Positions 8,593-11,519 of a stretch of 36,830 nucleotides of DNA are shown piece after piece. The position numbers and the translations under genes were made by a program. Every line of letters begins with the position of its first letter. The stretch's first letter is position 1. The DNA is from Spartobacteria bacterium (GTDB taxonomy: Bacteria; Verrucomicrobiota; Verrucomicrobiia; Chthoniobacterales; UBA6821): the NCBI GenBank assembly GCA_947487385.1, contig CANKWU010000019.1, positions 1-36,830 on the forward strand, in the 5' to 3' direction. A model generated the notes under the pieces. The model ran no database searches. It was not told where the DNA came from and saw only the letters and a program-made list of their open reading frames with translations.

Positions 8593-8770
8593 AAAATAAA
8601 AAAGGGTCTTAGGGAGCTGAGAAAGAGAGTCGACGAAAATGGTTGGTTAGGACGGTGTAGATTTTATGATTTCTGTTGTCGCAACGCCACTCACAATCTT
8701 GATGAAAAACCCCTCTGATCAAAAAATCTCTAACCAAAGGGCTAAGAAAACTCCGGGGAGGAGCGTCTAG

Positions 8771-9130
8771 GGAAGCGCTGAATAAATCCCATGATGGCCT
8801 CTGAAGTGCATTTAATTGTTATTCAAGGGCGTGTAGCTCAGAGGCAATACCCTTGCGGTCTTGCCCAAGCAAGCAACGCAGGAACATCGAGTATCGGGAG
8901 ATACGATGAAGCCTGCGAAGCAGTCCGGAGGACGAACCAAGCACCCGGGAGGGTGTGCTGAAGAAAGCGATGTAATCGCTCCCCAAAGGGTGCCACAGCT
9001 TCTCGGGAGGGAAGTGGCATCAACCCGTCGGGAGACGGCGAGGCAAAACGGCCCATTGCTTGCCCGGTCGTTGCTTCGCATCCGCTGCGACTTTCCGCAA
9101 CAGCCTCAATGCGATTTAATAAGCGCTTCC
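8771..9130. mobile_element. MITE-like element 1 with terminal inverted repeats
   Basis: A 360-bp segment with roughly 30-bp imperfect terminal inverted repeats: the left end begins GGAAGCGCTGAATAAATC, and the reverse complement of the right end begins GGAAGCGCTTATTAAATC. It is flanked by CTAG on both sides (8767-8770 and 9131-9134), which reads as a 4-bp target duplication. It contains no credible protein gene; its interior folds strongly (see the RNA entry). The ends match those of the element at 11242-11515. Termini beginning GGAA and 4-bp CTAR target duplications resemble IS5-family transposition, so it may be moved in trans by such a transposase; this is inference. The surrounding non-coding stretch 8593-9459 otherwise holds only the dispersed repeat at 9314-9445. 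Confidence 0.7.
8828..9107 (+). ncRNA. Probable structured RNA carried by MITE-like element 1
   Basis: Three long-range helices nest inside one another: GAGGC 8841-8845 with GCCTC 9103-9107, TTGCGG 8853-8858 with CCGCAA 9095-9100, and CAAGCAA 8870-8876 with TTGCTTG 9056-9062. Inside the last lies a row of local hairpins: CGCAGG/CCTGCG (8877-8917) enclosing GTATC-GGGA-GATAC; GTCC-GGA-GGAC at 8923-8933; CACCC-GGGA-GGGTG at 8942-8955; AGCGAT-GTA-ATCGCT at 8966-8980; CTTCTC-GGGA-GGGAAG at 8999-9014 within TGCCA/TGGCA; CCGTC-GGGA-GACGG at 9025-9038. Four loops are the same GNRA tetraloop, GGGA, a signature of RNA rather than DNA function. The GNRA loops suit the plus strand as the RNA. I cannot assign a family; group I/II intron-derived RNA or an omega/HEARO-type guide scaffold are alternatives. 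Confidence 0.5.
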
Positions 9131-9313
9131 CTAGGTACTGTCACGGGAGATCCGCAATTTCCCGAAGTGGATCGCGAGATCTTTTATGATTCGAAGCGCT
9201 AGGCTATTCAGTCGTTGCCTCATCCCGGGCCTAATCAATGGGGTAAGCTCGAATTGATAAAATTAAGGGATTGGCATCTGAATGACGAGCGAATGATACC
9301 CCCTTCCCAACCT

Positions 9314-11202: not shown

Positions 11203-11241
11203 TTTCATCCATGATGCTTCCAACAAGCTTCAGTGAGCTAA

Positions 11242-11515
11242 GGAACCGCTGATTAAATCGCATAGAGGCCGTGGCGGAAAGAATGGGCCGCCGGGCAAGG
11301 CGGCTTGGCGCAAGCATCCCCGCAGTGGGCTGTAAGCGCCAAGCCTACATGGCCCCCGGCCGGTTATCTCCGCAACCCGCAGGGCTGAAGCCATTTGTCG
11401 ATTTTTTCGCGTTGCTCGCTCGGGCGAGACCGCTGTGGGTATCGCCCAGCACTCGCGCCTCCAAAAATCAGCAACTGCTCTTCAGCGGCCTTCATGGGAT
11501 TTAATCAGCGGTTCC
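11242..11515. mobile_element. MITE-like element 2 with terminal inverted repeats
   Basis: A 274-bp segment with 30-bp terminal inverted repeats that differ at only three positions (left end GGAACCGCTGATTAAATCGC; right end, reverse-complemented, GGAACCGCTGATTAAATCCC), flanked by CTAA on both sides (11238-11241 and 11516-11519). The interior folds back: GCCGCC 11287-11292 with GGCGGC 11299-11304, GCTTGGCGC 11303-11311 with GCGCCAAGC 11336-11344, and GGGCC/GGCCC further out. No protein gene is credible. The ends share GGAASCGCTKAWTAAATCSCAT with element 1, but the interiors are unrelated. It follows umuC by 39 nt. Confidence 0.75.
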
Positions 11516-11519
11516 CTAA

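Follow-up and report, generated by a model that had tools for sequence, protein, structure and literature searches.

The closest known systems to the elements reported here are the palindrome-associated transposable elements (PATEs) and the small mobile repeats (SMRs) of Haloquadratum. In the portions of PMC3119063 drawn on here, PATEs are related to IS605-type transposons, have neither a transposase nor terminal inverted repeats, carry palindromes near both ends, cause no target duplication and often lie inside other mobile elements. SMRs measure about 80–110 bp and likewise cause no target duplication, SMR-A insert into the palindromes of PATEs, and PATEs and SMRs show a strong tendency to insert into one another; the same portions of PMC3119063 call the mobilisation of SMRs enigmatic. 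REPINs and REPs, which are associated with RAYT transposases, are also short multi-copy hairpin DNA, going by the extracts of PMC3116915, PMC3733652 and PMC8266576; a REPIN hairpin shows compensatory changes (PMC3116915), and CGTC repeats seem to have no dedicated transposase (PMC3733652). How small repeats without a transposase move is an open question, judging from what these extracts say of SMRs (PMC3119063) and of CGTC repeats (PMC3733652).

We analysed a window of 36,830 nucleotides from a Spartobacteria bacterium (contig CANKWU010000019.1), which is the whole stretch of DNA considered, and compared it with other genomes and loci, denoted by G and L numbers, respectively. Its structured stretch is a nest of three elements, in which C (87 nt) lies within B (75 nt) and B within transposon A (360 bp), as follows.

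8767..8770, no strand: CTAG flanking A on the left, one copy of its putative target duplication (direct reading)
8771..9130, + strand: outer inverted-repeat transposon A, MITE-like, with ends GGAAGCGCT...AGCGCTTCC (inverted arms; related copies in its own genome and in the genus)
8882..8884, + strand: GAA left of B, the insertion site of B in A (copies of A without B)
8885..8936, + strand: 5' part of B, closing with the GAA left of C (model R3, 71.7 bits; pair counts in 8 other B copies)
8885-8908, + strand: P1 of B, loop GGGA at 8896-8899 (within the 5' part of B)
8913-8923, + strand: P2 of B, CTGC-GAA-GCAG (within the 5' part of B)
8924-8932, + strand: P3 of B (within the 5' part of B)
8937..9023, + strand: element C (models R1 and R2 match 8934-9023 with 104.7 and 94.7 bits; pair counts in 129 copies; DNA and RNA folds)
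8941-8956, + strand: P1 of C, loop GGGA at 8947-8950
8966-8980, + strand: P2 of C
8982-8990, + strand: P3 of C
8991-9019, + strand: P4 of C, loop GGGA at 9005-9008
9020-9023, + strand: tail of C, TCAA
9024..9046, + strand: 3' part of B, with P4, loop GGGA at 9030-9033, and the end GAGGCAA (matches the 3' end of B copies without C)
9131..9134, no strand: CTAG flanking A on the right, the other copy of its putative target duplication (direct reading)

B and C have one plan in common: P1 with a GGGA loop, P2, P3, P4 with a GGGA loop and a 3' CAA, the whole starting directly after GAA. Their ends, GAA/CC...TCAA (the slash marks the junction), are not inverted repeats, and the palindromes P1 and P4 lie near both ends. 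As far as the consulted portions of PMC3119063 go, B and C therefore resemble PATEs in every trait listed above for them except the IS605 relationship, resemble SMRs in size and in the lack of target duplication, and share with both the habit of insertion into one another. They differ from PATEs, as described in those portions, in having four covarying hairpins in place of two near-terminal palindromes, GGGN loops and GAA/CAA junctions, and in that a search for Y1_Tnp in 16 genus genomes found no IS605-type parent with matching ends; they differ from SMRs in lacking terminal inverted repeats. With REPINs and REPs they share the short multi-copy hairpins and the compensatory changes, and with CGTC repeats the apparent lack of a dedicated transposase, but the architecture is different, no RAYT is linked, and the C consensus, by its reading, shows no GTAG- or CGTC-type tag. 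Among the open-licence papers listed in a literature search, none described B or C. The very small mobile repeated elements of cyanobacteria, attributed to Elhai (2008), are said to be 21–27 nt long, against 75–90 nt for B and C, which they resemble as very small mobile repeats and in their association with heptameric repeats.

A preliminary description made from the letters of this DNA had taken the stretch for one highly structured RNA with four GGGA-capped hairpins, three nested long-range helices and no encoded protein, inside a transposable element. The four hairpins are present at the positions that it gave: the loops at 8896, 8947 and 9030 each cap a perfect 5-bp stem, and the stem of the fourth, at 9005, includes one G-T pair. 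Apart from the three perfect hairpins, the + strand of the whole window has no GGGA hairpin whose stem reaches 4 bp. When the 280-base stretch was shuffled, such hairpins occurred at a mean of 0.0055 and three were reached in 0/2000 shuffles, whereas 40 shuffles of the whole window gave a mean of 0.95 GGGA hairpins and a maximum of 3, so that it is the clustering, and not the window total, that is far from chance. The element indeed folds as RNA well below chance on both strands (z = -5.3 on the + strand and -4.7 on the - strand), and the transposable element around it is the outer inverted-repeat transposon A. The outer one of the three nested helices is the terminal inverted repeat of the DNA transposon A, with arms (8767-8792 and 9109-9134) of 88% identity. 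Neither of the two ORFs overlapping the element had a match in Pfam at E <= 0.001, which agrees with the absence of an encoded protein as far as recognised families go. The single RNA had to be given up: B and C are two nested elements, each found elsewhere alone, B without C at L022, L023, L028 and L044, and C without B at L031, L043, L007 and other loci. The neighbours of the element are a class I tRNA synthetase gene (W/Y type) on one side and a Peptidase_S24 gene on the other, the latter followed by a gene for an impB/mucB/samB-type polymerase.

Transposon A is itself repeated. A search of its own genome with the 376-base element returned the element itself, one copy of 94% identity over 350 bases and 17 partial matches, which end at common breakpoints; 14 of 58 genomes, its own included, have matches, and all of them belong to one genus. 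MITEs of the IS5 type have terminal inverted repeats and a short YTAR-like duplication. A has the terminal inverted repeat. It is bordered left and right by CTAG here and by CTAA in L036; other copies differ.

As empty sites indicate, B and C have inserted precisely beside a GAA, or beside the CAA with which another copy ends, and readable sites carry no target duplication, although in heptamer-like arrays no duplication and a one-unit duplication cannot be told apart. Copies of A without B (L035, L024, L034) read GCAGGAA/AACGGCC, and the B of L022 sits exactly at that junction. C lies in the GCGAAGC loop of B at L124, where comparison with an intact B (L128) gives 60 gapless bases at 97% identity. 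In a longer type of B, C follows GGGACGAA at L100, L101, L105 and L138, and the same site is empty at L126 and L136; a C copy of G010 (L064) aligns with related empty sequence in G012 (L024) over 43 gapless bases at 84% identity. Among 126 distinct sites, the left flank has G as its first base in 104 and C in 13, and the next two bases are A in 123 and 116. Second copies adjoin the CAA end of the first copy directly. B and C insert into each other, also into hairpin loops, B being found within the P4 loop of C as well (L123, L126), and the B+C composite recurs at several loci. Some sites run counter to a strict GAA rule. Intact B reads GAGG at the place where the C lineage of the window shows GAAC, and a related G012 sequence reads TAGGG and TAGG at the places of GAGAA in L085 and GAAC in L080. 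The target is therefore not strictly GAA, or the site was altered later. Many copies of the B/C family are diverged.

Several C copies (L131, L139, L123, L126, L077) are flanked by intergenic arrays of 7–8-bp units, mostly with GAA, such as (ACCTGAA)n, (TTATGAA)n and (AAGTGAA)n, also (GTCGAGG)n, in which the C copies sit in phase. The GAA arrays may attract the elements or be made by them. Hairpin repeats might also spread passively, by replication slippage, template switching or recombination and without any dedicated enzyme; the many copies in tandem or in heptamer-like arrays, (ACCTGAA)n and (TTATGAA)n among them, fit such a process, as does the lack of a consistent transposase across genomes. 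We consider it unlikely, because the ends are constant on both sides and the elements have entered unrelated sequence, as with B in A, with C in B and at L064, which calls for a site-specific cut.

Element C is abundant within the genus and has relatives in several families of the phylum. Model R1, built from 11 C copies, detected C in 15 of 16 genus genomes with 3–136 copies each (136 in G006, 41 each in G003 and G009, 31 in G010, 26 in G014, 24 in G012, 21 in G000 and fewer, down to 3, in the rest), and none in the genus genome G013, which is 84% complete. Across the order, 25 of 197 genomes matched, 15 of them genus members, and none of the six genomes of the sister genus did. The broader model R2 found multi-copy relatives in genus g8 of another family, with as many as 11 copies. 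In a phylum sample of 387 genomes there were five matches at E <= 0.001, a value that is rough for models of this type: three in the genus, one in g8 and one in G298. The last, from another family of the class, has four tandem copies (L189) of P2-P3-P4-TCAA-like units with a period of 111. An exact pattern occurred in 10 stretches of named genomes, five from Spartobacteria MAGs, one from Terrimicrobiaceae and four from unrelated groups, and none of these last four was clearly confirmed by the model (one scored 20.5 bits, three had no match). B matched in 8 of 57 genomes of the order, a sample with three genus members; within the genus G014 (10), G000 (4) and G008 (2) were best, and weak matches appeared elsewhere, including two genomes of the sister genus. 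The exact pattern had no match in viral contigs, nor did the B+C stretch match phage and plasmid records by blastn.

Selection acts on the fold. Across 129 distinct copies of C, 95.4% of cells are paired, 25 of the 28 pairs have changes on both sides (20 on average in shuffles), double-change cells number 714 as against 197 in shuffles, and the pair score is 0.531 where slid pairs reach at most 0.067; the alignment behind these values was model-fitted and leans toward the structure of the model. In a MAFFT alignment of 11 C copies, 11 of the 28 pairs have double changes. For B, 8 copies give double changes in 8 of 22 pairs, with P2 and P3 invariant. Substitutions that break the stems in homologous copies had been named beforehand as evidence against the structured RNA, and the opposite is seen, namely compensatory change that keeps the stems. 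B and C are probably homologous, to judge from their common plan and from g8 copies with B-like 3' halves.

Whether selection acts on RNA or on DNA is best approached through the loops. A GNRA tetraloop leaves position 2 free and holds A at position 4. Here, 233 of 242 four-base loops have G at position 2, while position 4 varies most, with A in 188 of 242; only 2 of the 162 GNRA-type loops in P1 and P4 have an N other than G, and another 48 loops read GGG with C, G or T in fourth place. In P2, where the stem can vary freely, 85 of 113 hairpins (16 of the 129 rows, which had no 4-pair P2 stem, were left out) have triloops, 58 of them GNA, and 21 have tetraloops; GNRA occurs in 0/113. The GNRA tetraloops of an RNA, as originally read, are therefore better described as GGGN loops with a nearly invariant G at position 2 and a variable position 4, next to a P2 devoid of GNRA. 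Triloops of the form C-GNA-G, GCGAAGC foremost, are unusually stable in DNA. The GGGN loops and GNA triloops, with no GNRA in P2, point to DNA hairpins. Folded as DNA, C by itself is more stable than its shuffles on either strand (z = -3.3 and -3.0).

Other observations were weighed against a functional RNA family, that is, a 3'-end stabiliser, an attenuator or an sRNA, transcribed and spread as transposon cargo. Besides the strong covariation of the C stems, such a family could claim the low RNA folding energy of C alone, mainly on the + strand (z = -2.4, and -0.9 on the - strand), and the G-T pairs, which at 67 of 2798 cells (2.4%) are twice as frequent as A-C mismatches (34); this excess is compatible with any single strand, RNA included, and G-T pairs are few. 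The first stand-alone copies examined sit between genes of the same direction, but co-direction as a sign of regulatory RNA came from three early cases and was not upheld in a larger sample. Of 141 copies 76 were usable there, with crude ORF calls; 30 overlap ORF calls (8 in the same direction, 22 opposite), many of which look spurious, and among the 46 intergenic copies 25 have an upstream gene of the same direction and 21 one of the opposite direction, the corresponding numbers for the downstream gene being 17 and 29, so that no clear preference of orientation relative to genes emerges. In 34 of 53 clusters the flanks have a positive GC skew when read along the element strand (binomial p = 0.053, t-test p = 0.028), which is what a preference for the lagging-strand template would give, but at p = 0.05. 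The lack of a clear orientation, the P2 triloops without GNRA and the few G-T pairs, along with nesting and constant GAA/CAA junctions, which are traits of mobile elements, make an RNA family improbable; the fold, loop, orientation and skew evidence taken together makes single-stranded DNA the likelier substrate of selection, ahead of RNA. Should this DNA reading hold, it warns that strong covariation need not signal RNA.

We found no RNA family that could account for the stretch. The omega or HEARO-type scaffold (RF02033) and the group I or II intron suggested earlier both failed to appear: for the element, Rfam at E <= 10 gave one chance match, to an animal lncRNA family and far below its cut-off, the C and B loci at E <= 5 gave neither HEARO nor intron matches, and nothing relevant was found in the window at gathering score or in the distant relatives at a permissive threshold. 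A reverse transcriptase gene was found in just 1 of 16 genus genomes, which speaks against movement as a group II intron. Reverse splicing of a retroelement or of an intron-like RNA would likewise leave no target duplication, and would explain precise insertion along with a conserved fold. We regard such an element as very unlikely, given the rarity of reverse transcriptase, the lack of Rfam intron matches and a length of 75–90 nt, which seems too short; to our knowledge, known self-splicing introns are all far longer.

Our preferred explanation, to which we give somewhat better than even credence, takes B and C for orphan elements without a transposase, moved in the form of folded single-stranded DNA in the manner of the PATEs of IS200/IS605. 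With similar, modest confidence we take them as one family of non-autonomous mobile DNA elements that could be called 'GAA-in, CAA-out'. An enzyme would recognise the folded top strand in single-stranded DNA, with P1 and P4 and their GGGN loops as the left and right recognition hairpins, and its cuts would follow GAA at the left end and CAA at the right end; the excised strand might then be joined after another GAA, by analogy with IS200/IS605 transposases. The fold would be kept by selection for being moved and not by an RNA function, and the mobilising enzyme may work from another place or may have disappeared from most of the genomes concerned.

The candidate mobiliser is the weak step of this explanation. 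A Y1 transposase was found in just 2 of 16 genus genomes (two genes in G006 and a partial match in G003) and in 3 of 6 genomes of the sister genus, and it is absent from genus genomes with 41 (G009), 31, 26, 24 and 21 C copies. That G006 has both the most C copies and two Y1 genes is suggestive, but G009 keeps 41 copies without Y1. The C model has no match within about 1.5 kb of Y1 genes. The G006 Y1 genes were rejected as the source of C, having GGGGTC-type inverted ends of their own, and their NCBIfam scores lie under the cut-off of REP_Tyr_transpos (REP-associated transposase). Y2_Tnp (IS91) gave no match in 22 genomes, an uninformative result since 14 control genomes were likewise silent.

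Y1 transposase and reverse transcriptase are missing from most host genomes, and an enzyme of an unrecognised kind might therefore be responsible. It is possible, though we say so tentatively, that B and C represent an undescribed class of single-stranded-DNA mobile elements of 75–90 nt, with four covarying hairpins (GGGN and GNA loops), precise GAA/CAA junctions, self-nesting and relatives across several families of the phylum, and that such an enzyme moves them. There is a fair chance of a new mechanism behind the movement of B and C. The needs of the enzyme should be readable from the family itself, which reaches 136 copies in one genome, keeps its ends constant, offers empty sites in nature and has diverged widely while the fold stayed the same.

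Some minor observations concern the surroundings of the elements. At L148 1376-1393, by eye, a truncated C reads GAACCAAGCCGCTG and then TCAA, and a G006 Y1 transposase element starts right after it; upstream of the other G006 Y1 gene there is an A-type end, GGGAAGCGCTGATTAAATCGCATGCAGGCC, at L143 301-390. The right arm of A (window 9050-9095; also L017) contains a further small repeat, whose - strand sequence is GGATGCGAAGCAACG. L035 (G003) and L024 (G012) have common outer flanks of A, and the right-arm repeat is present in L035 only. This repeat was rejected as a third GAA/CAA element, as the junctions between L035 and L024 do not fit. A second A-type element, at window 11238-11519 and 2.1 kb downstream of the first, has inverted repeats, is flanked by CTAA left and right, and contains neither B nor C.
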